Source: Lachnospiraceae bacterium
GTDB lineage: Bacteria > Bacillota > Clostridia > Lachnospirales > Lachnospiraceae
DNA: 64,000 nucleotides
Direction of reading: 5' to 3'
Assembly (NCBI GenBank): GCA_902362715.1
Contig: CABIXN010000002.1
Location: forward strand, 372,001 to 436,000
Within the stretch, counting starts at the first letter, position 1; each line of letters starts with the position of its first letter. Made by a program: the position numbers and the translations under genes. Of this stretch, positions 26,679-50,012 are shown in pieces. The notes under the pieces are model-generated. The model was not told the DNA's origin, ran no database searches, and saw nothing but the letters and a program-made list of their open reading frames with translations.

Positions 26679-27734
26679 TTAAAAAACGGAAATTTTATGT
26701 AAAAATTTAGAAATAAAGCCGGGAGTGTTAAACAATCTCGGCTTTATTTCTAAATTTTTGAAACGTCGATATTCCAATGGGGATAATCCAAACTTTTTTT
26801 TAAACACAGCAGCAAATTTCCCTTGATTAGAGTAGCCGACCTGTTCGGATATTTCGGCAATCGGACGCTTTGTGTCCGAAAGAAGTCTTGCGGCTTCGTT
26901 CATACGGATTTCCCGCAGCCAAGTGGATATATTCTGTCCATATACGCCTCGAAAATAGTTTTTCAGGCTGGTTTCACTGACCGAAAAGCGTTCTGCAATC
27001 TGCCGTACAGGAATGTGCTGGCGAAGATCATCGGAAAGGATTTGCGCTGCCCTTTTTGCAATTTCAACCTGCGTTTCCGTGTAGAAGCCGCAGGTTTTCG
27101 GAGGCCGGATTTCCATGTTAAGAAGCCGGTGGAGAAGTTCAAGCGTATAGATTTGCAAATGGAAGATAGAGGGCCTTTCAGATAGCTGCCAGAGGTTTTG
27201 AAATATATTTTCCAGTTCGCTGTCCGCTTCGTTGATATATGTCTTATGATTGCCGCAATAACTTTCTTCCAAATCGGGGAGATCAAGCGAAAAAGATTTC
27301 AAAAGCTCACCACAGGACTGAAAAAGAAGTGACAGATCAAAGTATATTTTTATCCCCTGGTACTGCTTCGTAGGAAAGATATATTCTTTTTGTGCGGTCT
27401 GCTCACTGACACAAAAATCATTTTCCTTCAGGTAAATGTAGGAGCCGTCATCCAGGAGCAATTCACTTCTGCCCGAAACGCAATAGTTAATCAGCAAAGG
27501 CTTTAGATTTGAATTTTCATCCGACTCCGGCCATACGGGAGCATTTACAAAAATAAAAGCTAAGGTCATCCCCGGAAAGAGTGTGTGGAATGTCATGCGT
27601 CCCTTGCCATCTGCCCGATCCAAAAGTAATGTGCTGCTATTTGGACTGTTTTTCAAAGTCACACCAGAAACAGCATCGCTGTTTTCTAAAATGCTGTATA
27701 TCATGTCACGCAACTGCTTCGCCCCTTTCATCAC
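26679..27734 (-). CDS. AraC-family regulator 1 of ECF set 1
   Basis: A 351-residue regulator. The N-terminal 220 residues form a sensor domain like that of PchR/YbtA-type regulators (GRMTFHTLFPGMTLAFIFVNAP). The two-HTH AraC domain covers about 225-325 (VRQIAERFSVSETSLKNYFRGVYG and EISEQVGYSNQGKFAAVFKKKFG). It is divergent from the ECF set 1 operon, its likely target. After the conserved end SPLEYRR it carries 26 extra residues encoded by a 21-bp perfect inverted repeat (26701-26759), an unusual tail absent in the two other AraC proteins here. The effector is not known; siderophore-type chelates are a family-based guess. Confidence 0.88.
   Translation of the reverse strand: MMKGAKQLRDMIYSILENSDAVSGVTLKNSPNSSTLLLDRADGKGRMTFHTLFPGMTLAFIFVNAPVWPESDENSNLKPLLINYCVSGRSELLLDDGSYIYLKENDFCVSEQTAQKEYIFPTKQYQGIKIYFDLSLLFQSCGELLKSFSLDLPDLEESYCGNHKTYINEADSELENIFQNLWQLSERPSIFHLQIYTLELLHRLLNMEIRPPKTCGFYTETQVEIAKRAAQILSDDLRQHIPVRQIAERFSVSETSLKNYFRGVYGQNISTWLREIRMNEAARLLSDTKRPIAEISEQVGYSNQGKFAAVFKKKFGLSPLEYRRFKNLEIKPRLFNTPGFISKFLHKISVF
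26701..26759. terminator. 21-bp perfect inverted repeat inside the araC 1 3' end
   Basis: Arms 26701-26721 and 26739-26759 are perfectly complementary over 21 bases with a 17-base loop; outer A5/T5 ends give a T tract in both directions. It has the form of a strong bidirectional terminator, but the AraC 1 reading frame runs through it to the stop at 26679. Confidence 0.8.
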
Positions 27735-27809
27735 GCAAAATCGTTGATATTATTATACCTGCGAGAAAATTCCCGGTCAATGAATATTCTGGCAAAGCGA
27801 AAAAACTCC

Positions 27810-27840
27810 TTGCTATACGGGCCTAAAATACTGATATGTG
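27810..27840. promoter_or_regulatory. Conserved upstream block of ECF operon 1, possible AraC site
   Basis: This block (TTGCT at its start, AAAATACTGATATG at its end) is matched at 31848-31879 before ECF operon 2, in both cases about 40 bases before the GTTAG palindrome. Location between the divergent araC gene and the operon suggests an AraC binding site. Confidence 0.5.
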
Positions 27841-27879
27841 CATAGAAGCATAATCGGATCTGTGCTACCATTAGATTTG

Positions 27880-27895
27880 GTTAGCAAGGTCTAAC
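27880..27895. promoter_or_regulatory. GTTAG-N6-CTAAC box 1, upstream of ECF operon 1
   Basis: Palindrome GTTAGCAAGGTCTAAC, 31 bases before the start codon at 27927. The arms resemble DtxR-type half-sites and the same 16-base layout recurs at three other operons of the island. Two DtxR-like regulators are encoded nearby. Confidence 0.75.
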
Positions 27896-27926
27896 TGAGA
27901 AAGCAATCATGTTAGGAGGTTTCGCA

Positions 27927-28508
27927 ATGAACAACAAATTGCAAGGAAAGGATCTCATCAACATCGGTATTTTCACGGCGATTTATTTTATCGTCATTTT
28001 CGCGGCGGCATCCATCGGTTTTATTCCGATTTTCATTCCGCTTATCAGCGTGATCGTGCCGCTTGTGGGCGGTATTCCGATGATGTTGTTCTTCTCCAAA
28101 ATCAAGAAATTCGGTATGCTTACCATCTGCGGAGTGCTGCTCGGCATCATTATGCTGCTGACCGGCATGGGCTGGTGGTGCATCCCTACCGGGCTGATCT
28201 TCGGGCTGATTTCCGATTTTATGATGAAAGCCTGTGACTACAAGAACGCCAAGCGTGAAGTGCTGATCCACGGCGTTTTTTCCATGTGGGTCATCGGGGC
28301 GTTTATTCCCATCGTTGTGACGCGTGACGCTTACTACCAGAATCTGCTCCCTGGTTACGGCCAGGAATATGCCGACACGCTCATGGCTTATATGCCCGAC
28401 TGGATTTTGCCGGTACTGCTTATTGCTGCTTTCGTCAGTGGTCTTGTCGGCGGCCTGATTGGACGAAAGATTTTCAAAAAGCACTTTGAGCGGGCGGGAA
28501 TTGTGTAA
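27927..28508 (+). CDS. ECF transporter S component 1 (MptD/Trep_Strep type)
   Basis: A 193-residue membrane protein with five to six hydrophobic segments, the substrate-binding subunit of an energy-coupling-factor importer. The start MNNKLQGKDLINIGIFTAIYF and the end LIGRKIFKKHFERAGIV are shared with two other S components in this window. These features fit the MptD (Trep_Strep) family. The ATG at 27927 has AGGAGG 7 bases upstream; an in-frame ATG at 27909 overlaps that site. The stop overlaps the start of the T component (TAATG). The substrate is not known. Confidence 0.85.
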   Translation: MNNKLQGKDLINIGIFTAIYFIVIFAAASIGFIPIFIPLISVIVPLVGGIPMMLFFSKIKKFGMLTICGVLLGIIMLLTGMGWWCIPTGLIFGLISDFMMKACDYKNAKREVLIHGVFSMWVIGAFIPIVVTRDAYYQNLLPGYGQEYADTLMAYMPDWILPVLLIAAFVSGLVGGLIGRKIFKKHFERAGIV

Positions 28509-29245
28509 TGAGCCGCGAACTTCTTGCAAGTCAAAAAAACAATCGCGGAATTTTATTAGACCCTCGGACAAAACTGGCGGTGCTGATTACCATAGCTGTC
28601 TTTATTTTGGGCGGTTCGTATGAAGGTATCATGCAGTATTACATCATCGTGTTGGCGGCGATCCCGCTGTTACTTTTGTCAGCGGCCAGAAAATGGAAAG
28701 GTGCTGTTCTCTATATCCTGATTTTCGGGGGAAGTCTGTGCTTGGAAATATTCGGCTTGTCCCGACTGACCGGCGTAGCAAACTACATTGCAGTAGCCAT
28801 CGTTGGTATTCTGCTGCGGTTCACCCCCAGCGTGGTCATGGGATATTTTGTGGTAACGACAACTACGGTCAGTGAATTTGTTGCGGCGATGGAACGGCTC
28901 CACCTGCCGCAGCAGATCACCATTCCCATGTCTGTGATGTTTCGCTTCTTTCCTACGGTTGCGGAAGAATGGAGCGCCATTGGGGACGCCATGCGGATGC
29001 GTGGCGTCCGCTTTGGTGGGGGAAAAGCCAGTGCGATTTTAGAATATCGGATTGTTCCTATGATGATCTGCTCCGTCAAAATCGGAGAGGAACTGTCCCA
29101 GGCAGCCCTTACGCGGGGATTGGGTGGCCCGGTAAAGCGGACGAATATCTGCAAGCTGGGCTTTCATGTGCAGGATGTTATTTTTCTGCTGATCTGTCTG
29201 GGAGCATTTGCAGCGCAAATCTATGTGCTTGCCGCAAGGGGGTGA
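28508..29245 (+). CDS. ECF transporter T component 1
   Basis: A 245-residue CbiQ/EcfT-type membrane protein that couples the S component to the ATPase. Hydrophobic segments lie in the first 120 residues and at the C-terminus. The cytoplasmic coupling helices carry the two family signatures MRMRGVRFGG and ALTRGLGGP. It shares one base with the preceding S gene and is followed after 5 bases by the ATPase gene. Confidence 0.9.
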   Translation: MSRELLASQKNNRGILLDPRTKLAVLITIAVFILGGSYEGIMQYYIIVLAAIPLLLLSAARKWKGAVLYILIFGGSLCLEIFGLSRLTGVANYIAVAIVGILLRFTPSVVMGYFVVTTTTVSEFVAAMERLHLPQQITIPMSVMFRFFPTVAEEWSAIGDAMRMRGVRFGGGKASAILEYRIVPMMICSVKIGEELSQAALTRGLGGPVKRTNICKLGFHVQDVIFLLICLGAFAAQIYVLAARG

Positions 29246-29250
29246 AGGAA

Positions 29251-30753
29251 GTGATTGAATGTAGGGATGTGTCCTTTTCCTATCCGGCCAGCGCCCTTCC
29301 TGACAGCGAGAGTCAAACCGGGGGCGCTTTGAAACACATTTCCTGCACCATTGAGGACGGTTCTTTTGTCCTGCTCTGTGGGACTTCCGGCTGCGGGAAA
29401 ACGACCATGACCCGGTTGTTTAACGGCCTGATCCCCCATTACCATGAAGGGACTTATACCGGCTCCGTCTATCTGGATGGAAAGGATACCCGTGACCTGT
29501 CACTGTTTGATATTTCTCTGAAAGTCGGCTCTGTATTTCAAAATCCGCGTTCTCAATTTTTCAATGTGGATACGACCAGCGAACTGGCTTTCGGTCCGGA
29601 AAACCACGGGATGCCGGAAGATGTTGTGCGTGATCGTGTAAAGCGTGTAGCTGCACAGCTAAAGTTGGAGCCGTTGCTTGATCGGAGTATTTTTTCTTTG
29701 TCCGGCGGTGAAAAGCAAAAAATCGCTTGCGGATCGGCAGCGGCTACCTCCCCGGATGTTTATGTGCTGGATGAACCATCATCCAACCTTGACGCATACG
29801 CTATCGCTGATTTCCGGCAGCTTCTCTTTACTTTGAAATCGCAGGGAAAGACCATCATCATCTCTGAACACCGGCTGTATTATCTGTCCGGCCTCTTTGA
29901 CCGTGTTCTGTACCTGAAGGACGGAGAAATCGAAGGTGATTATACAGCAGAGGAATTTTGCGGCCTGTCAGCAAAACAGCGCGATGATATGGGATTGCGC
30001 CCTCTTGACCTTACGGGGCTTTCAGAGATTGAAGGCCCGCTGCAGAGAATGAACGAGGCGGTTTGGACGATAAAGAATGTATCCTTCGCCTATAAGCATG
30101 AGCCGGAAACCTTGCATATAACGGAAACCTCTTTCCCATCCGGCAGCGCCACGGCCATCATCGGACATAATGGTGCGGGAAAATCCACCTTTGCCCGGTG
30201 CCTCTGCGGGTTGGAAAAGCACTTCAAGGGAACGGTGCAGGATCAAAGCAAGAACTATTCCAGAAAAGAACGATTGAAACTCTGCTATATGGTCATGCAG
30301 GATGTAAACCACCAGCTCTTTACCGAAAGTGTTCTGGATGAAATTCTGCTCAGTATGAGAACCGAGGATAAACAGAAGGCAAGAGAAATCTTGCAGGAGA
30401 TGGACTTGCTTTCCTTTGAGGACTGCCACCCGATGGGGCTGTCCGGCGGCCAAAAGCAGCGTGTGGCGGTTGCCTCTGCGATTGCTTCGGGGCGGCCTCT
30501 GATTTTATTTGATGAACCGACCAGCGGCCTTGACCTGTTTCACATGAGGCAGGTCGCTAATGTTGTCAATCAGGTGGCAAATGCCGGAAGAACCGCGCTT
30601 GTGGTAACGCATGACCCGGAATTTATTCTACGCTGTTGCAATTATGTCCTTCGCTTAGAAAATGGGCAAATTCAGGAAAGTTATTCCATAGAGAACAGCG
30701 ATGGCCGAAACCGGCTGCTCAAGTTTTTCCTGCAGGATATGGGAACAGGGTAA
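29251..30753 (+). CDS. ECF ATPase 1, two fused ABC domains
   Basis: A 500-residue protein with two ABC ATPase domains, replacing the usual EcfA/EcfA' pair. Domain 1 has Walker A GTSGCGKTT, signature LSGGEKQKIA and Walker B YVLDEPSSNLD. Domain 2 has GHNGAGKSTF, LSGGQKQRVA and ILFDEPTSGLD. I prefer the GTG at 29251 because AAGGGGG ends 8 bases upstream; a GTG at 29242 overlaps that site. It is the last gene of set 1, which has no YbtPQ-like pair. It is convergent with araC 2, with only 9 bases between. Confidence 0.9.
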   Translation: MIECRDVSFSYPASALPDSESQTGGALKHISCTIEDGSFVLLCGTSGCGKTTMTRLFNGLIPHYHEGTYTGSVYLDGKDTRDLSLFDISLKVGSVFQNPRSQFFNVDTTSELAFGPENHGMPEDVVRDRVKRVAAQLKLEPLLDRSIFSLSGGEKQKIACGSAAATSPDVYVLDEPSSNLDAYAIADFRQLLFTLKSQGKTIIISEHRLYYLSGLFDRVLYLKDGEIEGDYTAEEFCGLSAKQRDDMGLRPLDLTGLSEIEGPLQRMNEAVWTIKNVSFAYKHEPETLHITETSFPSGSATAIIGHNGAGKSTFARCLCGLEKHFKGTVQDQSKNYSRKERLKLCYMVMQDVNHQLFTESVLDEILLSMRTEDKQKAREILQEMDLLSFEDCHPMGLSGGQKQRVAVASAIASGRPLILFDEPTSGLDLFHMRQVANVVNQVANAGRTALVVTHDPEFILRCCNYVLRLENGQIQESYSIENSDGRNRLLKFFLQDMGTG

Positions 30754-30762
30754 CGAATAGGT

Positions 30763-31755
30763 TTAACCTTGCTTTAAATGTATGGAACGGCGGTATTCCA
30801 ATGGTGTTTGCCCATATTGCTTTTTGAATACAGCAGCAAACTTACTTTGGTTCATATAGCCTACCTGTTCTGCTACTTCAGATACAGACAATTTGGTTGA
30901 AGCAAATAATTCAGCAGCTTTTTTTAGCCGGATTTCACGCAGATATACAGAAATGTTTTGGCCATAAACACCGCGAAAATAATTTTTCAGACTGGTTTCA
31001 CTGACACAAAAGCGGGCGGCCAATTCCCATGCTGGATGGTGCTGGCGCAGGTCGGAAGTAATAATTTTTTCCACCTGCTTCGCAATATCTACCTGTGTTT
31101 CTGTAAAAAATGTACATGCCTGTGAAGGAGGAAGGTGATCAAGATTTTGTAAATATGAAAACAGCGCCAGAGAATAGATCTTCATCTGGGTAACAGCAAC
31201 AGAGTCTGGTAAATCAAAAAGCTCCCAAAGTTTTTTTAAAATAGTTTCTGCTTCTGCAGGGGCTGGGGATATGTAGGTGCTTTCTTCCGGACAGTAATGT
31301 TTTGTAATCTGATGAAAGTCAATGCCAAATTCTCGCATCAGCCATGTGTTTTCATTTGCAATCGTTGTAAGATCAATAAAAAATTCCAGCCCTTCATAAA
31401 TGTGCCTGGGATACTGATATTGATTCTGAGCAAAATGTTCCGTGAAAGACAGGTCATTGTCTTTAAGATAAACATAGTTTCCGTTATTAAGGACAATTTC
31501 ACAGCGTCCTGTAACACAATAATTGAATAAAAGAGGCCCTGTTGCATTGGAGCCATTTTCATGGAAATCCGGTGCGGGCCATATGGGAGAATTAACAAAA
31601 ATATATGCCAGGTTAAAGCCCGGAAAAAGAGAGTAGAAAGTCATGGATCCTTTTCCGGATGCGCTTTTGAAAAGAAGTTCTGTACTGGTTTTACTGCTTT
31701 TTATTGATATACCGGGGATTTCAATACACTTTTTTAGAATATCATCAATTTTCAT
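30763..31755 (-). CDS. AraC-family regulator 2 of ECF set 2
   Basis: A 330-residue PchR/YbtA-like regulator, clearly a paralogue of AraC 1 (KGSMTFYSLFPGFNLAYIFVNSPIWP against KGRMTFHTLFPGMTLAFIFVNAPVWP). The HTH domain is at the C-terminus (CVSETSLKNYFRGVYGQNI and VSEVAEQVGYMNQSKFAAVFKKQYG) and it ends normally at TPLEYRRSIHLKQG. It is divergent from ECF operon 2, its likely target, and tail-to-tail with ECF ATPase 1. Confidence 0.88.
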   Translation of the reverse strand: MKIDDILKKCIEIPGISIKSSKTSTELLFKSASGKGSMTFYSLFPGFNLAYIFVNSPIWPAPDFHENGSNATGPLLFNYCVTGRCEIVLNNGNYVYLKDNDLSFTEHFAQNQYQYPRHIYEGLEFFIDLTTIANENTWLMREFGIDFHQITKHYCPEESTYISPAPAEAETILKKLWELFDLPDSVAVTQMKIYSLALFSYLQNLDHLPPSQACTFFTETQVDIAKQVEKIITSDLRQHHPAWELAARFCVSETSLKNYFRGVYGQNISVYLREIRLKKAAELFASTKLSVSEVAEQVGYMNQSKFAAVFKKQYGQTPLEYRRSIHLKQG

Positions 31756-31847
31756 ATAGAACTCCGTTAGTATGAATGAGAATCGGTTATCAAAGGCTAC
31801 CTTTATATTATAGTCAGGCTGGATGATCCGGTCAACGGGAAAACTCG

Positions 31848-31879: not shown

Positions 31880-31915
31880 TAGAGAAACGTAAGAACATCT
31901 GATATTCTGTTCTGT

Positions 31916-31931
31916 GTTAGTATTATCTAAC
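31916..31931. promoter_or_regulatory. GTTAG-N6-CTAAC box 2, upstream of ECF operon 2
   Basis: GTTAGTATTATCTAAC lies 25 bases before the start codon at 31957. A TATTCT at 31903-31908 just upstream may be the -10 element, which would place the palindrome at the transcription start. Confidence 0.75.
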
Positions 31932-31956
31932 CAGTAAATGAGTGGAGGTATTCGTT

Positions 31957-32541
31957 ATGAGTAACAAGTTACAAGCAAAGGACCTGATTAACCTGGGGCT
32001 GTTCACCGTTCTCTACTTTGTGATTGGCTGCTGTGTCGCCATTCCTATTGGGTTTGTGCCTATCTTTTTGCCAATCCTCGGTGCCTTGTGGTCTTTGATT
32101 ACAGGTATCCCCTTCATGCTGTTTCTGACAAGAGTAAAGAAATTCGGCATGGTTACGATTATGGGGATTTTAAGCGGTTTGCTGATGGGCTTGACCGGCA
32201 TGGGCTTCTGGGGTGTACCAATGGGTCTGATTTTTGGCCTGCTGGGAGATTTAATTTTGAAATCCGGAGGTTATAAAAGTGCTAAAAAGAGCCTGATTAG
32301 CTATGCTGTATTCAGTCTTTGGATGGTCGGTACATACATTCCCATGTATTTCATGGTAGAGGATTCCTGGGCCAGTTTTGCGGCCAGCTTCGGTGAGGAA
32401 TATGCTGACCAGGTGATGGCTGTCATGCCCATGTGGAGCATTGTTCTGGTGATTGCCGGGATTTTTGTTTTTGCGATTTTGGGCGGCCTGTTAGGTAAGG
32501 CACTTCTGAAAAAGCATTTTGCCAAAGCGGGAATTGTGTAA
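31957..32541 (+). CDS. ECF transporter S component 2 (MptD/Trep_Strep type)
   Basis: A 194-residue polytopic membrane protein, paralogue of S components 1 and 3 (start MSNKLQAKDLINLGLFTVLYF, end LLGKALLKKHFAKAGIV). Binds the substrate of the importer at the outer face. The ATG at 31957 has GGAGG 8 bases upstream. The stop shares a base with the T gene start. Sequence differences from S1 in the loops suggest a related but possibly different ligand. Confidence 0.85.
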   Translation: MSNKLQAKDLINLGLFTVLYFVIGCCVAIPIGFVPIFLPILGALWSLITGIPFMLFLTRVKKFGMVTIMGILSGLLMGLTGMGFWGVPMGLIFGLLGDLILKSGGYKSAKKSLISYAVFSLWMVGTYIPMYFMVEDSWASFAASFGEEYADQVMAVMPMWSIVLVIAGIFVFAILGGLLGKALLKKHFAKAGIV

Positions 32542-33281
32542 TGAGCGGAGTAGCATTCTCGGAAACAACTGAAAAAAGAAAAGGAATACTGCTTGATCCC
32601 CGTACAAAACTCCTCCTGTTGTTGATGATTACAACGTTGATGTTCAGTACCAGTAATGAGGGGATTATGAATATCGTCAAGCCCTGTTTAAGCCTTGTCC
32701 CCTTTGTGCTGATTTTATCAGAACATCGCTTCAAAACAGCCGGAAAATATTTACTGCTCTATGTAGCCTGCTTTGCATTGGAGCGGATTGCCCTTGTGTA
32801 TTTAAGCGGCTTACTTTCCTTCATTGTGCTGGCGGTTACATCCATTATGACACGTTTCGCACCGGGCATCATGACCGGTGCATGGCTGATCTCATCAACT
32901 TCCGTCAGTGAGTTTATCGGCGCAATGGAGCGTATGCACATCACAGAAAAAATTGTCATCCCCATGTCTGTGATTTTTCGTTTTTTCCCAACAATCAGCG
33001 AAGAATATCAGGCAATCCGGGATGCCATGAAAATGCGGGGTATCCGCTTGGGTGGGAGAAATCTTTTGCTGATGGTGGAATACAGGCTGGTTCCTTTGAT
33101 GGTATCCGTTGTAAAGATTGGTGACGAACTATCTGCTGCTGCGTTGACACGGGGGTTGGGCGCCCCTGTTAGACGCACAAATGTATGCCAAATCGGTTTT
33201 CATTTTCAAGATGTAATTGCCGCCCTATTCTGTATCCTCTGCTTTATTGTATTTCTGCTTCAGAAGCAACTTGTCTTTTGA
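32541..33281 (+). CDS. ECF transporter T component 2
   Basis: A 246-residue EcfT/CbiQ-type transmembrane protein with the coupling signatures MKMRGIRLGG and ALTRGLGAP. It is a paralogue of T1 and T3 and is translationally coupled to S2. The ATPase gene follows after a 14-base gap with a strong AAAGGGGGTGA ribosome binding site. Confidence 0.9.
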   Translation: MSGVAFSETTEKRKGILLDPRTKLLLLLMITTLMFSTSNEGIMNIVKPCLSLVPFVLILSEHRFKTAGKYLLLYVACFALERIALVYLSGLLSFIVLAVTSIMTRFAPGIMTGAWLISSTSVSEFIGAMERMHITEKIVIPMSVIFRFFPTISEEYQAIRDAMKMRGIRLGGRNLLLMVEYRLVPLMVSVVKIGDELSAAALTRGLGAPVRRTNVCQIGFHFQDVIAALFCILCFIVFLLQKQLVF

Positions 33282-33295
33282 AAGGGGGTGAGCCT

Positions 33296-34762
33296 GTGAT
33301 ACAGATTGACCATGTGACCTTCTCGTATGGGGAAGAAAGCGAGAGTGCCGGTGGTGTTCAGGATATAAACCTGAACATAGAGGATGGACAATTTATTGTA
33401 CTTTGCGGCGAAAGCGGCTGTGGAAAAACGACAATTACCCGCCTGATTAATGGATTGATCCCTCACTACTATGAGGGCAAAATGAATGGGAATGTTTGGG
33501 TGAATGGGGCAAAGGTTTCGGAGCAGCCCCTTTATGATACTGCAAAAACAGTTGGCAGCGTATTTCAAAATCCACGCTCTCAATTTTTTAATGTAGACAC
33601 GACCAGTGAAATTACATTCGGATGTGAAAATCTCGGCCAGCCAGAGCGAAGTATTCGAGAACGATTAGAAAAAACCGTCCGGGATTTTCATTTGGAGAAA
33701 CTGATGGGGCGCAATATTTTTCACCTATCCGGGGGAGAAAAACAGAAAATCGCCTGTGCCGGGGTGTCGATTATGGAACCTGATGTACTTGTTATGGACG
33801 AACCATCGTCTAACCTCGATGCTTCTTCTATTCTCGATTTGAGAGCCATACTTGCATTTTGGAAGGCGCAGGGAAAAACAATTATCGTGTCAGAACATCG
33901 GCTTTACTACCTGCGAGGCCTTGCGGATCATTTTATTTATATTACTGCCGGACAAGTGGAAAGGGATTACTCTGCGGCAGAGTTTGAGCAACTTACAGAG
34001 CAGCAAAGAGCCGATATGGGCCTTCGCACTTATATTCTTGAAGATTTGCTGCCGCCCGGAAGATCACCGCAAAGCGGAGAACAAATGGAGCTTCGCAATT
34101 TCTGTTTTGCCTATAAAAACGAACCGGAGACACTTCACATTCATGAAAGCAAAATTCCGGCGAACCGTATTGTAGGGATTATTGGAAATAATGGAGCTGG
34201 AAAATCGACTTTCTCCCGGTGCTTTTGCGGTTTGGAAAAGCGGTGCGGCGAAGTTATATGGAATGGAAAAGCCTACCGTCCCAAAGACAGGTTGAATACC
34301 TGCTATATGGTAATGCAGGAAGTCAATCATCAGCTTTTTACGGAAACAGTGTTAGATGAGGTTTTAATCAGCATGGAGGACGAAAGCGAGGAGCAGGCAG
34401 AAAGAATCCTTGCCGAGTTAGATTTGACAGATGTGGGAGACAGACACCCCATGTCCCTATCCGGCGGCCAGAAACAGCGGGTAGCGATTGCTTCGGCAAT
34501 CGCTTCTAAACGCTCTATCTTATTTTTTGATGAACCGACCAGCGGCCTTGATTATAAGCACATGAAAGAGGTTGCAAATGTCCTGCGGCAAGTCAGGGAC
34601 ACGGGTATTACCGTGTATGTCATTACTCATGACCTTGAGTTGATATTAGACTGTTGTACGGATATTGTTCATTTTGAAGATGGTTCTATCATCGACCAAT
34701 TTCCAATGGATGCGGATGGACTTGAAAAAATTAGAAACTTTTTTCTAAGGGGGTATTTGTAA
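33296..34762 (+). CDS. ECF ATPase 2, two fused ABC domains
   Basis: A 488-residue double ABC ATPase. Domain 1 has GESGCGKTT, LSGGEKQKIA and VMDEPSSNLD; domain 2 has GNNGAGKSTF, LSGGQKQRVA and FFDEPTSGLD. The GTG at 33296 follows AAAGGGGGTGA and begins MIQIDHVTFSYG, in line with ATPases 1 and 3. It belongs to the same transcript as the following YbtP-like gene, whose start is two bases after its stop. Confidence 0.9.
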   Translation: MIQIDHVTFSYGEESESAGGVQDINLNIEDGQFIVLCGESGCGKTTITRLINGLIPHYYEGKMNGNVWVNGAKVSEQPLYDTAKTVGSVFQNPRSQFFNVDTTSEITFGCENLGQPERSIRERLEKTVRDFHLEKLMGRNIFHLSGGEKQKIACAGVSIMEPDVLVMDEPSSNLDASSILDLRAILAFWKAQGKTIIVSEHRLYYLRGLADHFIYITAGQVERDYSAAEFEQLTEQQRADMGLRTYILEDLLPPGRSPQSGEQMELRNFCFAYKNEPETLHIHESKIPANRIVGIIGNNGAGKSTFSRCFCGLEKRCGEVIWNGKAYRPKDRLNTCYMVMQEVNHQLFTETVLDEVLISMEDESEEQAERILAELDLTDVGDRHPMSLSGGQKQRVAIASAIASKRSILFFDEPTSGLDYKHMKEVANVLRQVRDTGITVYVITHDLELILDCCTDIVHFEDGSIIDQFPMDADGLEKIRNFFLRGYL

Positions 34763-36509: not shown

Positions 36510-36523
36510 GGGGGTGTTGTCAG

Positions 36524-40048: not shown

Positions 40049-40064
40049 GTTAGAAATGACTAAC
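40049..40064. promoter_or_regulatory. GTTAG-N6-CTAAC box 3, upstream of the GNAT operon
   Basis: GTTAGAAATGACTAAC lies 26 bases before the ATG at 40091 and just downstream of a good promoter. Repression by steric block at the start site is the simplest reading. This box ties the GNAT-methyltransferase operon to the ECF operons. Confidence 0.75.
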
Positions 40065-40720: not shown

Positions 40721-40745
40721 AAGATTTAAGGAGGCGTGTGAATTC

Positions 40746-41231: not shown

Positions 41232-41259
41232 CGGAATCATGAAGAAAGGAGACAATGAT

Positions 41260-42192: not shown

Positions 42193-42210
42193 TATTTTTA
42201 ATCACAATAG

Positions 42211-42226
42211 GTTAGAGAAATCTAAC
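42211..42226. promoter_or_regulatory. GTTAG-N6-CTAAC box 4, upstream of ECF operon 3
   Basis: GTTAGAGAAATCTAAC lies 21 bases before the ATG at 42248, the same arrangement as boxes 1-3. Confidence 0.75.
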
Positions 42227-42247
42227 TGCGCTGGAGGTATGTAGAAA

Positions 42248-42838: not shown

Positions 42839-43560
42839 TGGATGCGGCGGTTACAACGCTAAAATTTGAAAACAAATCTGTTATTCCCACCGATCCGAGG
42901 ACAAAACTGTTTTTGACTGTAACTGTCAGCACTATTATGATTACCGGCGGCACGGGCGGATTTATGAACCTGGTTCGCCCGTGCCTCATGGCGTGCCCGA
43001 TTGTATTCCTGCTCCTTTCAAGGAAATGGGTGGACGCAGCTAGATTTGCTGTTACATACGCTATTCTGTTTGCTTTGGAATTAACGGTATTACCGCTGCT
43101 CACTGGCACATGGAATTTTATCCTGGGAGCAGCAGTCGGAATCTATACACACATGCTCCCCGGATTTATCATGGGATATTATCTGGTGAGTACGACAACA
43201 GTCAGTGAATTTGTTGCTGCGATGGAGAAGATGCACATTCCACAAAAAATCGTGATCCCTATGTCGGTGGTATTCCGATTTTTTCCCACAGTCAAAGAGG
43301 AATATGCGGCTATACGGGATGCCATGAAGATGCGCGGCATCACTACTCTCCGCAGTCCCATGAAGATGCTGGAATACAGGGTGGTCCCTCTGATGATGTC
43401 GGTTGCCAAAATCGGAGAAGAACTGTCTGCGGCGGCTCTCACACGAGGGCTTGGGGCGCCGCAGAAACGGACAAATATTTGTAAAATTGGGTTTGGACCT
43501 TTGGATGTTTTTTTCTTCCTGCTGGCGATACCCTGTTGGGTCGGTTTCTTTATCTGTTAG
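42838..43560 (+). CDS. ECF transporter T component 3
   Basis: A 240-residue EcfT/CbiQ-type membrane protein with coupling signatures AMKMRGITTLR and ALTRGLGAP. Paralogue of T1 and T2. It is coupled to S3 by a one-base overlap and followed 13 bases later by the ATPase. Confidence 0.9.
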   Translation: MDAAVTTLKFENKSVIPTDPRTKLFLTVTVSTIMITGGTGGFMNLVRPCLMACPIVFLLLSRKWVDAARFAVTYAILFALELTVLPLLTGTWNFILGAAVGIYTHMLPGFIMGYYLVSTTTVSEFVAAMEKMHIPQKIVIPMSVVFRFFPTVKEEYAAIRDAMKMRGITTLRSPMKMLEYRVVPLMMSVAKIGEELSAAALTRGLGAPQKRTNICKIGFGPLDVFFFLLAIPCWVGFFIC

Positions 43561-43573
43561 GAGGAAGGAGTCT

Positions 43574-45037
43574 ATGATTGAACTTCGCAATATCAATTTT
43601 CGCTATGCCGGGGGAACGGATGCCGGTGGGCTTGTAAACATTGACTTAATCATCCCGGACGGGCAAGTTATCCTTTTGTGTGGGCAATCCGGCTGCGGAA
43701 AAACAACCCTGACCCGCCTGGTGAATGGGCTGATCCCGAATTATTACGAGGGCGAGTTAAGCGGCGAAGTCCTGCTGGATGAAAAAAACATCAGTTCCCT
43801 TCCGCTCTATGAAACAGCAAAATATGTGGGGAGCGTTTTTCAAAATCCCCGTACACAGTTTTTTACGGTGGACTCTACCAGCGAACTGGCCTTTGGGTGT
43901 GAAAATCAGGGCTTGCCTGAAGAAAAAATCATTCAGCGGGTGACATCGACTGCGGAGCAGTTTGGGATGGAGAACCTGCTGGGGAAAAATATCTTTTCTC
44001 TTTCCGGCGGAGAAAAGCAGAAAATCGCCTGCGCTTCTGTATCGGTCAGTGATCCGCCCATCATTGTCCTGGATGAACCATCTTCTAATCTGGATATGTC
44101 AGCCACAAAAGATCTGCGCTGGATGATCCAGATTTGGAAACAGCAAGGGAAAACCATTATTATTGCGGAACATCGGCTCTATTATCTGAAAGAGCTGATA
44201 GACCGTGTTATCTATTTGAAAAACGGAAAAATTGAAAAAGATTATCTGGCTTCGGACGTATTGAAACTGTCCGCAATGCAACAGGCAGAAATGGGATTGC
44301 GGCCTTTTGACTTGGGGGCGTTCCCGGTAGTAGCACATCCTACTGTAAGCTACGGTACTATCGAATGTGAGAACTTTCATTTTGCTTATACAAAGCAAAG
44401 GGATGCGCTGGATATTGATAGACTTTCGTTGCCGCAGGCGGGTATTATCGCAGTGATCGGCCATAACGGTGCCGGAAAATCCACCTTGGCCCGGTGTCTC
44501 TGCGGATTGGAGAAACACTGTAAGGGCATTGTGAAAGCGGATGGGAAAACGTATAATAGAAAACAGAGGCTGTCCCTGTGTTATATGGTCATGCAGGATG
44601 TCAACCATCAGTTGTTTACAGAAAGCACAGAGGAAGAAATGCTCATCAGCATGGCGGAGCCAGCTTCGGATAAGGCAGATGCAATTCTTGACCGATTGGA
44701 TTTGTTGCAGTTTAGGGAGCGGCATCCGATGGCGCTCTCCGGTGGTCAGAAGCAGAGGGTGGCGATTGCCACCGCTCTTGTTTCCGAGCGTAAGATTTTA
44801 GTGCTGGATGAACCTACCAGCGGTCTGGATTTACAGCACATGAAAGAAGTGGCTGATGAACTCGTTACGATACAGGAAATGGGAAAGACCTCTCTTGTCA
44901 TTACCCATGATTATGAGTTAATCGTCAGTTGCTGTACTCATATTCTGCATCTGGAGCATGGTGTGGTACAGGAACAATATGCTTTGGATGCCGCAGGGTT
45001 CCAGCGCCTTCAAAATTTTTTTATAGAATCGAGGTGA
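43574..45037 (+). CDS. ECF ATPase 3, two fused ABC domains
   Basis: A 487-residue double ABC ATPase: domain 1 GQSGCGKTT, LSGGEKQKIA, VLDEPSSNLD; domain 2 GHNGAGKST, LSGGQKQRVA, VLDEPTSGLD. The ATG at 43574 follows GAGGAAGGAG. The araC 3 gene follows 7 bases after the stop on the same strand. Confidence 0.9.
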   Translation: MIELRNINFRYAGGTDAGGLVNIDLIIPDGQVILLCGQSGCGKTTLTRLVNGLIPNYYEGELSGEVLLDEKNISSLPLYETAKYVGSVFQNPRTQFFTVDSTSELAFGCENQGLPEEKIIQRVTSTAEQFGMENLLGKNIFSLSGGEKQKIACASVSVSDPPIIVLDEPSSNLDMSATKDLRWMIQIWKQQGKTIIIAEHRLYYLKELIDRVIYLKNGKIEKDYLASDVLKLSAMQQAEMGLRPFDLGAFPVVAHPTVSYGTIECENFHFAYTKQRDALDIDRLSLPQAGIIAVIGHNGAGKSTLARCLCGLEKHCKGIVKADGKTYNRKQRLSLCYMVMQDVNHQLFTESTEEEMLISMAEPASDKADAILDRLDLLQFRERHPMALSGGQKQRVAIATALVSERKILVLDEPTSGLDLQHMKEVADELVTIQEMGKTSLVITHDYELIVSCCTHILHLEHGVVQEQYALDAAGFQRLQNFFIESR

Positions 45038-45044
45038 TCCCAGT

Positions 45045-46001
45045 TTGAATAAAAGCGACCTGTTTTTCTCGCAGCAAAATATGAATTTGCTCTGCCGGGA
45101 TGAATCCTGCTCAGTCTACCAAATGAAAAATGAAACAGGAGACGGAACTGCAACCTATTATGAAGTATATCCCGGAATAGGTGTCATGTATAATGATTTT
45201 CACATGGAGCACTGCCCGTCAAGGAAGTTTGAACAAAATACGCACACTTTTGCAATTCACCATTGCAGAGAAGGCCGCGTCGAGTGGGAAGTCAGCAATG
45301 GCGCTTATCTTTATCTTGCGTCCGGCGATATTATGTTGGACAGTTCTGCCACGGAAAACAACCATTGCAGCTTTCCTGTAAGCCATTACCACGGGATTAC
45401 AGTTACGATTTCTGTCCCCGAAGCGGTAGAGGGTTTGGGTGATCTTCTGTCCCTGTTTTCCATTGACCTGGAGCAGATTGAACAGCAATTTGCCTTGAAA
45501 ACACGCCCTTTCATCATGCATGGAAACTCTGTCCCCGACCATGTAATCTCAGAACTGTACCAAGTGCCTGATAATATCCGTCTGGAATATCTCAGGGTAA
45601 AGATCCTGGAATTGTTGGTCACGCTCAGGACGGTAGACCCTACAGTCTTAGGTGTGGAGCGTCCCTACTTTTATAAGACTCAGGTGGAGAAGGTCAAGGC
45701 TATCATGTCGTTTATGACAAATGAGCCGGAGCGCCATTTCACGATGGAGGAACTTTCTGAAAAGTTTGATATTTCTACTTCTGCCCTAAAGCAGTGCTTT
45801 AAGGGCGTGTATGGCACCGCCATTTATACCTATATGCGGAATTATCGTATGGACCTGGCAGCTTCTCTTTTGACACAGACGGATGAACCGATTACGGTGA
45901 TTGCCGGAAAAGTTGGTTATACGAACACCAGCAAGTTTTCTGAGGCGTTCAAGAAGGTAAAGGGAAAAACGCCGCTGGAATATCGAAAAATAAAAATCTA
46001 A
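45045..46001 (+). CDS. AraC-family regulator 3, within ECF operon 3
   Basis: A 318-residue AraC regulator with a sensor domain of the same general type (GTATYYEVYPGIGVMYNDFHMEHCP) and a C-terminal HTH domain (LSEKFDISTSALKQCFKGVYGTAIYTYM and VIAGKVGYTNTSKFSEAFKKVKG). Unlike AraC 1 and 2 it is transcribed with the ECF genes rather than divergently, and it is more diverged from them than they are from each other. TTG start with GAGGTGA 8 bases upstream. Confidence 0.87.
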   Translation: MNKSDLFFSQQNMNLLCRDESCSVYQMKNETGDGTATYYEVYPGIGVMYNDFHMEHCPSRKFEQNTHTFAIHHCREGRVEWEVSNGAYLYLASGDIMLDSSATENNHCSFPVSHYHGITVTISVPEAVEGLGDLLSLFSIDLEQIEQQFALKTRPFIMHGNSVPDHVISELYQVPDNIRLEYLRVKILELLVTLRTVDPTVLGVERPYFYKTQVEKVKAIMSFMTNEPERHFTMEELSEKFDISTSALKQCFKGVYGTAIYTYMRNYRMDLAASLLTQTDEPITVIAGKVGYTNTSKFSEAFKKVKGKTPLEYRKIKI

Positions 46002-46057
46002 ACGGAGTAAAATCCGGCTGGGCAGAGTGGCGGGCAACATGAATATCTGCAATACTT

Positions 46058-46092
46058 AGAGAGTATCAAGTCGATTGATACTCTCTATTATT
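46058..46092 (+). terminator. Perfect 12-bp hairpin between araC 3 and the ABC pair
   Basis: AGAGAGTATCAA (46058-46069) and TTGATACTCTCT (46075-46086) are perfectly complementary around GTCGA, followed by ATTATTTTG. It is a terminator or attenuator that would separate expression of the ABC pair from the ECF genes. Confidence 0.75.
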
Positions 46093-46112
46093 TTGCTTAA
46101 GGAGGAAAGGAA

Positions 46113-47879
46113 ATGAAGCAGAAAAGCTGGATTTCTATTGTGTTTTCCTTTGCTTCACAGTGCCGGGGCAAGATTGTCCTGTCCGTCTTATGTGCGATCA
46201 TCAGTGTGGTTGCCGGACTGATACCCTATTGGAGTGTTTACCAAATTATCACGCTCTTTATCGGCGGTTCACCTGTGATGGCAGAGGTTTGGAAATGGTG
46301 CTGGATCGGACTTGGCGCTTATGCGATACGCTTCTTGCTCTATGGTATTTCAACGAGCCTGTCCCACATATCCGCCTATACCATTTTGGAGAATATTCGT
46401 TTGGCTCTTGCCCAGCGGCTGATGAAAGCGCCGCTGGGGACAGTCATCGGAGAGTCTGTGGGTAAACTGAAAAATGTATTGGTAGATCGGGTGGAAACGA
46501 TTGAGCTGCCGCTGGCCCACATGATTCCAGAGTGTATCTCCAACCTGCTGCTCCCTGTGGCAGTCTTTGTTTATCTGGTTTGCATCGACTGGCGTATGGC
46601 GCTGGCGATGCTGGTCACACTGCCTTTCGTTCTGATTGCTTTTGCTATGATGATGAAGAATTTTAACAAGCTCTATGCTGATTACATGGAGTCCAACAAC
46701 TATGTGAACGGCGTGATCGTGGAGTATGTGGAGGGTATCGAAGTTATCAAGGCGTTCAATCAGTCCTCCAGTTCTTACGAAAAGTTCACCAAGGCGGTAG
46801 AGTCCTTCAAAGACTACACCCTCAAATGGTATCAAAATTCCTGGAAAGTGATGAACTTTGTTGCTGCTGTGCTACCGTCCACCTTTTTGGGAACGCTCCC
46901 GATTGGTATGTATCTCTACTGGAACGGTAGCCTTACGCCGCAGGACCTTGCAATGTGCCTGATCCTCTCGCTGGGTATTGTAGGCCCGCTGATGAACTTT
47001 ACTACTTACATCAATGAGACGAAGGCGATTGAATACGCCGTCCACGACGTGGACGAGTTGCTCCATGCGGAGGAACTGCCTGATACTGGAAAACCAGTGG
47101 AGGTGCCGTCCAAAGACATTCAACTTCAGGATGTTTCGTTCTCTTATGATAAAGAGAGCGGTAAACCGGTGCTTTCCCATATCAATCTGAAAATCCCGGA
47201 GGGAAAGTTTACGGCGCTTGTCGGCCCGTCCGGTGGAGGCAAGTCCACCGTTGCCCGCTTGATTGCCCGCTTTTGGGATGTGAACGATGGAAAAATCACC
47301 ATTGGCGGTGTGGACATTCGCAGTATGCCGCTGGCCCAACTTGCCGATATTGTCAGTTTTGTTACACAGGATAACTTCCTGTTTAACTGCTCCATCAAGG
47401 AAAATATCCGGCTGGGAAACCCTGATGCTACGGACGAAGAAGTATATGCGGCAGCAAAAGCCGCCTGCTGTGATGAATTTATACAGAAATTGGACAATGG
47501 CTATGACACGATGGCCGGAGATGCGGGAAACCGGCTTTCAGGTGGCGAGAAACAGCGCATCTCCATTGCCCGCATGATTTTGAAAAATGCCCCTATCGTG
47601 ATTTTGGACGAGGCAACTGCGTTCACCGATCAGGAAAACGAAGAAAAAATTCAGCAGTCCATTGCTGCTTTGACAAAAGGGAAAACTTTGCTTGTCATCG
47701 CCCATCGTCTGTCCACCATCAAAAATGCTGATCAGATTATCGTCCTGCAAAATGGACAGGTTGAGAATATGGGCACGCATCAGCAACTTTTAGATAGCGA
47801 CTCTCTCTATCGGGATATGTGGGAGGCGCATATCGGAGCACAGAACTGGTCTGCCGGTTCCGGGAAAGGAGGTAACTGA
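46113..47879 (+). CDS. ABC transporter 3P (YbtP/IrtA-like, fused permease-ATPase)
   Basis: A 588-residue exporter-fold ABC protein, paralogue of 2P. Six membrane helices in the first 310 residues; ABC domain with GPSGGGKST, LSGGEKQRIS, ILDEATAFTDQE and IAHRLST. The ATG follows AAGGAGGAAAGG. It is paired with the next gene one base after its stop. As with 2P/2Q, import of a siderophore-type ligand is suggested by the family parallel and the context, not shown. Confidence 0.87.
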   Translation: MKQKSWISIVFSFASQCRGKIVLSVLCAIISVVAGLIPYWSVYQIITLFIGGSPVMAEVWKWCWIGLGAYAIRFLLYGISTSLSHISAYTILENIRLALAQRLMKAPLGTVIGESVGKLKNVLVDRVETIELPLAHMIPECISNLLLPVAVFVYLVCIDWRMALAMLVTLPFVLIAFAMMMKNFNKLYADYMESNNYVNGVIVEYVEGIEVIKAFNQSSSSYEKFTKAVESFKDYTLKWYQNSWKVMNFVAAVLPSTFLGTLPIGMYLYWNGSLTPQDLAMCLILSLGIVGPLMNFTTYINETKAIEYAVHDVDELLHAEELPDTGKPVEVPSKDIQLQDVSFSYDKESGKPVLSHINLKIPEGKFTALVGPSGGGKSTVARLIARFWDVNDGKITIGGVDIRSMPLAQLADIVSFVTQDNFLFNCSIKENIRLGNPDATDEEVYAAAKAACCDEFIQKLDNGYDTMAGDAGNRLSGGEKQRISIARMILKNAPIVILDEATAFTDQENEEKIQQSIAALTKGKTLLVIAHRLSTIKNADQIIVLQNGQVENMGTHQQLLDSDSLYRDMWEAHIGAQNWSAGSGKGGN

Positions 47880-47880
47880 T

Positions 47881-49629
47881 ATGTTTCGGATTGTAAATCG
47901 ACTGATCCAATGGACAGGAAAATATAAACGGCGTATTTACATCGGGTTTATCTACGCTTTCATTCACAGCATTTTTACCGCAATCCCTATTATGCTGGCT
48001 GCGAATGGATTAAGTGCTGTTCTGGATGACTGGGGTGGCGTCAAGCCATTGGAGGGCCGGGACATCTGGATCATGCTGGGGGCCATGATTTTAGCTGTAC
48101 TGGGTCGATACCTGTTCTCTTATCTCCGAGCCATCACGCAGGAAAGTGTCGGTTATGAAGCAACCGCTGACGAGAGAATCCGGCTGGGAGATATTTTGAA
48201 ACGGGTGTCGCTGGGTTTTTTCAACAAGAACAATATCGGTGAGTTGTCGGCGGCCGCAACAACCGATCTCTCGTTCATGGAAATGTATGCCATGAACATG
48301 GTAAACACCGTGGTCAACGGCTATATCACAGTTATCGTCTTGATACTGTTCCTTGCATTTTATAGTCCTATGGCGGGAGGAATTGCTCTGGCTGGCGTCC
48401 TTCTGTCTGCCCTGTTTCTTCATCTGCTGGAGGCGCGCAGCCACCAAAACGCGCCTATCCATCAAAAGGCGCAGGACGATATGGTGGAAAGTTCCATCGA
48501 GTATCTGCGGGGGATGCAGGTGGTGAAAGCCTTTAAGCAGGAAGGCGTGTCTATTGCCGGTATCCACAAAGCATACAACGACAGCAAGAAAATCAACATC
48601 AAAATTGAAGTGGAATATATGCCCTTCAACTGCCTGCACCTGTTTTCGCTGAAAGCCGCCTCCATTGCCATTGTAGCTGTGGCTGCTTGGCTGACCTATA
48701 ACGGCAGTATGGAACTTCCTACCATGCTCATGCTGGATATGTTCTCCTTTATGATCTTTGGAAGTGTGGAAGCCATGAACAACGCCGCCCATGTATTGGA
48801 GGTTATTGATGCTACGCTGGATAAACTGGACGGCATTGAACACGCTGACATTATAGACAAAGACGGGAAAGATATTTCTTTGCAGAACACAGACATTGCT
48901 TTCCGTGATGTGACATTTTCCTACGATAAAGTTCCTGTTTTGCGGAATATCAGCTTTTCCATCCCCCAGGGCAGCACTACGGCCATTGTAGGGCCATCTG
49001 GCAGCGGCAAGACCACGATTTGCAACCTGATTGCCCGTTTCTATGATGTGGACAGCGGCAAGGTCACAGTAGGCGGTGAGGATGTGCGGAACATGACCTG
49101 TGACAGTTTGCTCCGCAATATCTCGATGGTCTTTCAAAAGGTCTACCTGTTCCACGATACCATTGAAAACAACATCCGTTTCGGCAATCCAAGTGCAACG
49201 AAGGAAGAAATTATAGAGGCCGCGAAAAAGGCCCGGTGCCACGACTTCATAATGGATCTTCCCGATGGATATGAAACCGTAATCGGCGAGGGCGGCTCCA
49301 CGCTGTCTGGCGGAGAAAAACAGCGCATTTCTATTGCCCGCGCCATTTTGAAAAATGCCAACATTGTAATTCTTGATGAGGCAACAGCAAGTATTGACCC
49401 CGAAAATGAGCATCTGATCCAGCAGGCAATCAGTGAACTGACCATTGGGAAAACGGTTATCGTTATCGCCCACCGTCTGGCAACGATTGAACACGCTGAC
49501 CAGATTTTAGTGGTGGATAAAGGTCAAGTTGTTCAGAAAGGAACACATCAGCAGCTTGTTCAGCAGGAAGGACTTTATCGCCGTTTCATTACAATCCGTG
49601 AGCAGGCGGAGGGCTGGAGCATTGCCTGA
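47881..49629 (+). CDS. ABC transporter 3Q (YbtQ/IrtB-like, fused permease-ATPase)
   Basis: A 582-residue partner of 3P and paralogue of 2Q. ABC domain motifs are GPSGSGKTT, LSGGEKQRIS, ILDEATASIDPE and IAHRLAT. It starts one base after the stop of 3P and is followed 20 bases later by the second DtxR-like gene, repeating the order of operon 2. Confidence 0.88.
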   Translation: MFRIVNRLIQWTGKYKRRIYIGFIYAFIHSIFTAIPIMLAANGLSAVLDDWGGVKPLEGRDIWIMLGAMILAVLGRYLFSYLRAITQESVGYEATADERIRLGDILKRVSLGFFNKNNIGELSAAATTDLSFMEMYAMNMVNTVVNGYITVIVLILFLAFYSPMAGGIALAGVLLSALFLHLLEARSHQNAPIHQKAQDDMVESSIEYLRGMQVVKAFKQEGVSIAGIHKAYNDSKKINIKIEVEYMPFNCLHLFSLKAASIAIVAVAAWLTYNGSMELPTMLMLDMFSFMIFGSVEAMNNAAHVLEVIDATLDKLDGIEHADIIDKDGKDISLQNTDIAFRDVTFSYDKVPVLRNISFSIPQGSTTAIVGPSGSGKTTICNLIARFYDVDSGKVTVGGEDVRNMTCDSLLRNISMVFQKVYLFHDTIENNIRFGNPSATKEEIIEAAKKARCHDFIMDLPDGYETVIGEGGSTLSGGEKQRISIARAILKNANIVILDEATASIDPENEHLIQQAISELTIGKTVIVIAHRLATIEHADQILVVDKGQVVQKGTHQQLVQQEGLYRRFITIREQAEGWSIA

Positions 49630-49649
49630 TAATTGAGGTAAAACGTATT

Positions 49650-50012
49650 ATGAAACTTCATGCATCTGGAGAGGATTATTTGGAGACTATTCTTGTCCTT
49701 CAAAAAGAACTCAATATGGTACGCTCTGTAGATGTTGCCCGGCACATGGGAGTGTCAAAACCAAGTGTATGTGTTGCTGTCAACACTCTGAAAGACGGCG
49801 GCTTTCTTACGATGGACGAGGATCATTTTCTCCATTTGACTGATGGGGGGCGAGAGGTTGCTGAAAAAATTTACGAGCGACACTGTTTTTTTACTGAACA
49901 GCTTATCTCCGTAGGTGTTGATCCTAAGACTGCGGAACAAGATGCCTGCCGGATGGAGCATGTGATAAGTGCAGAGAGTTTTGAAAAAATGAAAGCAGCA
50001 TCTAAAAAGTAG
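49650..50012 (+). CDS. DtxR/MntR-like metal-dependent regulator 2
   Basis: A 120-residue near-copy of the regulator at 38272 (about 13 differences over 117 residues, mostly outside the HTH). HTH and candidate metal ligands are the same. It closes operon 3 exactly as copy 1 closes operon 2, so the P-Q-dtxR unit seems to have been duplicated or acquired twice. Confidence 0.88.
   Translation: MKLHASGEDYLETILVLQKELNMVRSVDVARHMGVSKPSVCVAVNTLKDGGFLTMDEDHFLHLTDGGREVAEKIYERHCFFTEQLISVGVDPKTAEQDACRMEHVISAESFEKMKAASKK

Follow-up and report, generated by a model that had tools for sequence, protein, structure and literature searches.

Two conjugative elements are already known to carry the producer form of a siderophore cargo, in which synthesis genes stand beside transporters. 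The first is ICESe2, an integrative conjugative element (ICE) of Streptococcus equi, whose equibactin locus (eqbA-N) occupies a slot between the conjugation and recombination modules. As described (PMC3672683), the locus has an energy-coupling factor (ECF) transporter (eqbHIJ), on which most of the equibactin-dependent build-up of iron in S. equi relied, a pair of half-transporters (eqbKL, here called a P/Q pair) and EqbA, a DtxR-like regulator with no SH3 domain. The second is 023_CTn1 of Clostridioides difficile RT023, which has conjugation genes and an equibactin-like synthesis cluster; its published gene table (PMC6814731) lists SacDH, thiazolinyl imide reductase, membrane protein, Ecf cobalt transporter, ABC, AraC, ABC and ABC. 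Here we describe an island in a 64,000-nucleotide stretch of a Lachnospiraceae bacterium genome (contig CABIXN010000002.1, positions 372,001 to 436,000; hereafter the window). We consider it probable that this island is equibactin-like cargo of an ICE, limited to transport and regulated by iron, and that it serves the uptake of xenosiderophores.

An earlier note on this DNA had described three ECF sets with AraC, P/Q and DtxR-like genes, and Pfam and NCBIfam profiles bear this out: there are three substrate-binding S components, three CbiQ-type T proteins, three double ATPases (A), three AraC-family genes, two fused permease-ATPase pairs and two DtxR-like genes, D2 and D3 (Table 1). The island shares with the equibactin locus the ECF transporter, the P/Q pair, the SH3-less regulator, the operator and the cargo slot (PMC3672683). 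It differs in having the ECF set in triplicate and the P/Q pair and D gene in duplicate, in its AraC genes, and in its tyrosine rather than serine recombinase; the Eqb proteins were compared by their description. No synthesis genes were found in the window: there is no non-ribosomal peptide synthetase (NRPS), ligase or reductase domain among the open reading frames (ORFs) scanned. The island is for this reason regarded as transport-only and not classed as an equibactin locus. The S-T-A-AraC-P-Q part of set 3 (S-T-A-AraC-P-Q-D) fits the tabulated order in 023_CTn1, a comparison made by gene order, and that element differs by its synthesis cluster (PMC6814731). The same order had been claimed for sets 2 and 3; P/Q and D genes are indeed present in both, but the AraC gene is divergent in sets 1 and 2 and lies inside the operon in set 3.

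The palindrome GTTAG-N6-CTAAC was recognised by aligning the regions upstream of S genes. The EqbA operator is printed as a 36-base palindrome with GTTAGATGTATCTAAC as its exact centre, and in the published gel shifts EqbA binding required this palindrome and was enhanced by Fe2+ or Zn2+ and less so by Mn2+ (PMC3672683). The operator in the window is identical to this published centre. There are exactly four sites in the window, upstream of S1, S2, S3 and a run of GNAT, ORF161 and methyltransferase genes, and none elsewhere in the 64 kb; a mean of 0.02 is expected, and none of 100 shuffles reaches four. This agrees with the DtxR-controlled uptake island, comparable to the equibactin ICE, that had been proposed, since the operator core precedes each ECF set.

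Across the window and the fetched loci (about 2.25 Mb), the palindrome occurs 173 times with spacing 6 (a count that includes overlapping loci and the window's own four sites), whereas spacings 4, 5, 7 and 8 occur 0, 0, 1 and 1 times and about 2.5 are expected. With the overlapping loci L080-L124 left out, an operator lies in the interval from 150 bp upstream to 30 bp inside the called start in 56/96 S and 16/88 P genes, compared with 1/87 T, 1/106 A and 0/83 Q genes. Genome-wide and grouped by hand, 8 of 10 sites in G016, 9 of 12 in G008 and 4 of 8 in G014 fall in or near ECF islands, the reversed control pattern occurring 2, 7 and 3 times in these genomes. The operator also precedes synthesis-type genes (thioesterase, aryl-AMP ligase, NRPS or CysE) at eight loci (L092, L090, L094, L096, L062, L135, L137 and L143), the strict count being 3 of 15 thioesterase, 1 of 9 ligase and 2 of 37 NRPS genes. 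At L139, the sites fall inside called ORFs.

D2 (126 aa) and D3 (120 aa) consist only of the N-terminal and dimerisation domains of DtxR, with no SH3 domain, the same make-up as described for EqbA (PMC3672683). They presumably bind the GTTAG-N6-CTAAC sites. D3 has a cysteine of the iron type at the position of DtxR Cys102, and D2 has the same stretch. D3 also has an aspartate at the position of DtxR Met10, as does E. coli MntR in the same alignments. The last feature would suit a metallophore for another metal such as zinc, copper or nickel, in which case the island would serve that metal, and the enhancement of EqbA binding by Zn2+ as well as Fe2+ points the same way. We nevertheless think this very unlikely, given that the iron-type cysteine is retained, that the equibactin deletion data concern iron (PMC3672683) and that sister cassettes share their stretch with a FeoB gene (checked by Pfam in L056 and assigned by cluster in L029, L059, L067 and L075).

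The three S components score 146, 147 and 145 bits against the 'MptD family' model TIGR02185, well above its curated cut-off of 76.45, and belong to the MptD/Trep_Strep family (PF09605). The AlphaFold model of S3 is all-helical with eight helices and a pLDDT of 91. The family is large, 2270 proteins matching S3 alone at E up to 1e-20. It had no match among PDB sequences and no relative in viral contigs, and only four plasmid records (33-34%) were found. Among the open-access literature on Trep_Strep that could be reached, there was nothing beyond colorectal-cancer metagenome work. Vitamin-specific S components would have spoken for ordinary vitamin or cobalt/nickel ECF transporters, a reading that fits the CbiQ-type T protein and the ECF architecture. 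Vitamin transport was rejected because the S components fall in the MptD family instead, and with operators and gene neighbours pointing to siderophores we regard the whole of this explanation as extremely improbable.

We fetched 79 loci by S similarity and screened the neighbours within 10 kb of S with NRPS, ligase and reductase queries. A synthesis-type gene was present at L012, L015, L017, L026, L032, L062 and L068. At the first three of these, S-T-A lies beside NRPS and aryl-AMP-ligase genes, and S3 is 81% identical to the S protein of L012 and 75% to that of L015. Both fall in the S3 clade of 15 rows, with support of 99/92 in the first tree and 91/88 in the second, for which 12 S rows, long-branched or distant, had been marked for exclusion. 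The L017 cluster has a thiazolinyl imide reductase (241.8 bits; cut-off 188.8). The 1962-aa NRPS of L012 has the bacillamide synthetase BmdB as its best PDB match, with dihydroaeruginoic acid synthetase and Irp2 also listed; heterocyclisation, as read from sequence, would rest on this NRPS and on the reductase. Aryl-AMP ligases in L092, L090 and L094 score 557-606 bits against TIGR02275, below its 724-bit cut-off. The clusters read also encode large NRPSs and saccharopine-dehydrogenase-type proteins, as EqbM is described, and L015 has a serine acetyltransferase.

The association is also seen in reverse. TIGR01761 was found in 8 of 391 Clostridia genomes, and by phmmer within the fetched stretches, seven of the nine thiazolinyl-reductase loci read have an S gene and eight have a P/Q pair. 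Two of these S matches score weakly, at 41-43 bits; G437 and G465 are closely related to each other, and G702 has neither S nor P/Q. In G487, the order AraC2-S2-T2-A2-P2-Q2 stands right behind a reductase-bearing cluster, with identities of 53, 75, 68, 64, 74 and 73%, and its S joins the S2 clade (support 100/100). Siderophore uptake, as first suggested, thus gains from sister cassettes beside NRPS, aryl-ligase and thiazolinyl-reductase clusters.

The earlier note had left a choice between foreign siderophores, haem and a similar chelate, and the siderophore part is the one that gains support. ECF transporters that take up haem are known from the isd locus and from other contexts; LhaSTA of Staphylococcus lugdunensis, compared here by description, is likewise an ECF transporter for iron but has a haem ligand and an isd context (PMC7299338). 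Were the three sets to import haem or another porphyrin as LhaSTA does, the islands would be haem-scavenging cargo, and set 1, which has no synthesis neighbour, could be read so. Against this, relatives of sets 2 and 3 stand next to siderophore clusters, the operator belongs to equibactin synthesis and the selection of annotated neighbours contains no haem-degradation or haemophore gene. Haem import is therefore unlikely. At L031, S is preceded by genes of the ammonium transporter, Crp, hemerythrin and flavodiiron types; their presence looked accidental, and they were dropped as substrate hints.

Taken together, these data suggest the following scheme. Each S would bind a ferric siderophore, which the T-A motor would bring in; the likeliest class is that of the aryl-thiazolines (equibactin-, yersiniabactin- or pyochelin-like). 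The P/Q pairs would act on the same ligand, either as a second importer or as a pump returning the stripped siderophore. When iron is plentiful, the EqbA-like D proteins would sit on GTTAG-N6-CTAAC and silence S1, S2, S3 and the GNAT-methyltransferase operon, while the AraC proteins would tune each set, probably by sensing ligand. The host would use siderophores made by its neighbours, as no synthesis genes were seen in the window, and the element would spread the island by transfer.

We infer that the host of the window makes no such siderophore itself. The absence of any biosynthetic gene, noted at the outset, holds for the window ORFs scanned, and two synthesis markers were not found in 22 carrier genomes, hand-picked from the 79 S loci with S3- or S1/S2-like cassettes. 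Their best S is 45-98% identical to S3, and several are draft or metagenome assemblies. TIGR01761 exceeded its cut-off in none of the 22 (three weak partial hits), and TIGR02275 at E up to 1e-100 was found in none, compared with 10 of 11 producer genomes.

Several observations weigh against this scheme. Of the 79 S loci, just seven lie within 10 kb of a synthesis-type gene, and L068 is a doubtful case because its genome has no Condensation domain. The set 1 clade has no synthesis neighbour, and the S genes near synthesis genes are scattered over the tree, clustering no better than chance (500 of 500 shuffles as low), so that the ligand is not readable from clade alone. In the stretches read, G702, G381, G487, G663 and G465 have no exact site directly before a synthesis gene, and the set-2 relative in G487 has no exact operator before S. 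The operator is not exclusive to islands, G008 having 12 sites genome-wide compared with 7 for the reversed control pattern. Thirteen of the 22 carriers have some ORF with a Condensation domain, and other peptide products are thus possible. Finally, an eqbKL knock-out of S. equi kept its iron import (PMC3672683), so P/Q pairs need not import.

The same mutant bears on the direction of P2/Q2 and P3/Q3. Its culture fluid was twofold less active, and its authors raise possible efflux (PMC3672683). If the pairs are exporters, for siderophore recycling or for resistance to siderophore-like toxins, only the ECF sets would import; we hold this to be possible but rather doubtful. The best single-unit PDB matches of Q3 by sequence score, among the matches listed, are Sav1866 and MsbA, which favours export, and the tie of Q2 and Q3 to YbtQ is not settled by the tree. 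This was a quick tree of 95 rows, from 28 chosen loci and the thiazoline loci, with SH-aLRT support only. P2 and P3, on the other hand, branch with YbtP (99), with MsbA, CydC, CydD and a few stray ABC rows outside, and YbtPQ is an established importer (PMC3672683). Q2 and Q3 form a clade of their own (100), YbtQ lies in a separate group of nine rows (92), and the fork with the P clade is left undecided. The label YbtPQ-like, given at first to both partners, can be kept for P. After YbtP, the single-unit PDB matches of P3 are YbtQ and IrtA; sequence identity to YbtP/YbtQ is 32-35%. Import by the pairs is a fair guess from this kinship. Unlike YbtP/YbtQ (yersiniabactin) and IrtAB (mycobactin), the pairs in the window are found together with ECF transporters.

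There is a hairpin between AraC3 and P3 that separates S-T-A-AraC from P-Q, so the two halves of set 3 may be expressed to different degrees; such uncoupling of P/Q would also suit exporters. By eye, 9 of 14 aligned relatives have the same stem, two have another and three have none that is clear.

The AraC genes had been taken for PchR/YbtA types. This was not supported: in a comparison that covered YbtA, the N-terminal parts of AraC1-3 gave only short, weak matches (alignment score 32 in all three) and have no useful similarity. AraC1 and AraC2 share the same near-consensus, promoter-like divergent hexamers, TTGACC-17-TATAAT (27752-27780 and 31807-31835, minus strand).

The sets behave as modules, and the three are not equivalent copies. 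The set 3 cassette (42097/42106-49630) is found at 83-95% DNA identity and with different flanks in L001-L003 and L005-L009. The match runs into D in L003 and L009, and in L004 it ends inside P3, 0.7 kb from the contig end. Its hosts are labelled Lachnospiraceae, Eubacteriaceae and Acutalibacteraceae, and that of L004 Oscillospiraceae. Within one family, S3-T3-A3 DNA at 83-92% and near full length is present in only 4 of 299 genomes, three of them already known from the S scan, which indicates a patchy distribution. Sets 1 and 2 with P2-Q2 form a single 11.8-kb unit; Catenibacillus scindens (L022) has it at 90.6%, and L025 has most of it. In the window, AraC2-S2-T2-A2 separates A1 from P2, which is why no P, Q or D gene comes straight after set 1. 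In L021, L023, L024 and L036, P-Q comes immediately after set 1 and A abuts P, which places the second S-T-A front end of the window exactly at that boundary. This suggests that P2/Q2 belongs to set 1 as much as to set 2 and is probably common to both. The order in which the front ends arrived is not readable, since a set-2 front end stands with P-Q in G487 and L076. There are also larger stacks, with S at six places within about 41 kb in G016 and at five within about 36 kb in G013, and relaxase-like genes (77-87 bits) lie beside the stacks in L106 and L107.

Paralogue identity among the three sets is 46-47% for S, 46-50% for T and 50-52% for A, and is 45% for P2/P3 and 44% for Q2/Q3; AraC1 and AraC2 are 48% identical and AraC3 is lower. 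D2 and D3 are 88% identical to each other, compared with about 65-84% to the D genes of sister units and 44-52% for the other paralogous pairs. Gene conversion may have kept a single operator specificity. The island genes are intact, and dN/dS (the nonsynonymous to synonymous rate ratio) is 0.01-0.14 in rows with measurable dS, which indicates purifying selection. Walker A, LSGG signature and catalytic glutamate motifs were found in A2, A3, P2, Q2, P3 and Q3, and the first Walker B of A1 is VYVLDEPS in translation. The starts of S1 and S2 were placed by eye from ribosome-binding sites, and the true starts of A1, A2 and A3 are likely inside the listed ORFs (Table 1).

A relaxase/NikA pair (24397-26557, minus strand) flanks the island on the left and a Tn916-type integrase (52787-54043) on the right. 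To the left are conjugation-type genes, namely a TraG-P-loop (VirB4-like) ATPase, an NlpC/P60 protein and a CD1107-like mobile-element protein, together with a topoisomerase, an SNF2 giant and an ArdC-N/LPD protein. Judged by these genes, the left side of the window resembles a conjugation module. The relaxase, the VirB4/TraG-like ATPase and the integrase expected of an ICE all lie within the one stretch; the left end of the element would be outside the window. Right of the integrase (54518-64000) are a DUF4379 protein, an Na+/H+ antiporter, ParA-ParB, a proline-rich ORF and a SpaA/thioester-domain surface protein truncated by the window end. This region is possibly the start of a second conjugative element.

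Table 1. Positions in the window of the island features and of the mobile-element genes that flank them
Feature	Position	Strand	Evidence or remark
Relaxase, MobA/VirD2 type, conjugation module	24397..26022	-	PF03432 E 2.7e-15
NikA/MobC-like relaxosome protein	25994..26557	-	PF21983 E 3.2e-15
AraC1, divergent to set 1	26679..27734	-	HTH_18 E 2.8e-23; dN/dS 0.06-0.07
EqbA-type operator upstream of S1, GTTAGCAAGGTCTAAC	27880..27895	+	Identical to centre of published EqbA operator
S1, ECF substrate-binding subunit, start probably ~27927	27909..28508	+	PF09605 E 4.6e-62; TIGR02185 146 bits
T1, ECF transmembrane subunit	28508..29245	+	CbiQ E 1.7e-21
A1, double ATPase, likely start 29242 (ORF opens 28969)	29242..30753	+	Two ABC_tran stretches; dN/dS 0.07-0.11
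AraC2, divergent to set 2	30763..31755	-	HTH_18 E 2.7e-22
EqbA-type operator upstream of S2, GTTAGTATTATCTAAC	31916..31931	+	
S2, start probably ~31957	31942..32541	+	PF09605 E 3.2e-62
T2	32541..33281	+	CbiQ E 4.9e-15
A2, double ATPase, likely start 33290 (ORF opens 33185)	33290..34762	+	Profiles and motifs
P2, fused permease-ATPase, clade with YbtP	34764..36509	+	Profiles, tree
Q2, partner half-transporter	36473..38260	+	Profiles, tree
D2, EqbA-like DtxR-family regulator without SH3 domain	38272..38652	+	PF02742, PF01325; 88% identity to D3
EqbA-type operator upstream of GNAT	40049..40064	+	Begins 14 bp downstream of the end of a TTGCAA-17-TATAAT promoter-like site
GNAT acetyltransferase, ORF161 (no Pfam match), S-adenosylmethionine (SAM) methyltransferase; gene run behind operator	40091..42075	+	
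EqbA-type operator upstream of S3, GTTAGAGAAATCTAAC	42211..42226	+	Conserved in relatives
S3	42248..42838	+	PF09605 E 2.1e-59; AlphaFold model pLDDT 91
T3	42838..43560	+	CbiQ E 7.6e-17
A3, double ATPase, likely start 43574 (ORF opens 43403)	43574..45037	+	Profiles
AraC3, within set 3 operon	45045..46001	+	HTH_18 E 2.6e-21
Hairpin with T-rich tail in AraC3/P3 gap, terminator/attenuator-like	46057..46087	+	13-pair stem
P3, clade with YbtP	46113..47879	+	Best single-unit PDB match YbtP 6p6i_A, 325 bits; tree
Q3, partner half-transporter	47881..49629	+	Profiles, tree
D3, EqbA-like DtxR-family regulator	49650..50012	+	PF02742, PF01325; Cys at DtxR Cys102 position
Tyrosine integrase, Tn916 type, recombination module	52787..54043	+	PF00589, PF02920

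The GNAT-ORF161-methyltransferase run also carries the operator and lies within the island, although it was absent from the earlier account. Methyltransferase genes are also found next to operators or S genes in L003, L009, L011, L025, L037 and L099. Other genes behind the palindrome encode a peroxiredoxin (L006:7445-8008), a DUF3793 protein (L003:2955-3521) and a Fur-like regulator (L072:4917-5489), so the regulon may be a wider iron/oxidative one. In G582 and G437, thiazoline siderophore clusters with ECF and P/Q genes adjoin conjugation genes (L135-L136, L139-L140 and L141-L143) and are perhaps producer versions on mobile elements; L139 has an SNF2-like match of 1825 bits, and the relaxase-like matches at the thiazoline clusters are weak.

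No transport-only, stacked islands with a common EqbA-type operator were found among the listed matches in the open-access literature. In our view, it is evenly balanced whether gut Clostridia hold a whole class of such 'piracy' islands, cargo of conjugative or other mobile elements that stacks interchangeable siderophore receptors under a single EqbA-type iron switch and descends from producer cargo of the equibactin type, its synthesis genes having been lost and S-T-A front ends swapped on a common P/Q core. If this is true, producer and non-producer versions would occupy the same kind of cargo slot. For a large ECF family that is little characterised, the island provides a testable function, tied to one operator that can be used for scanning.

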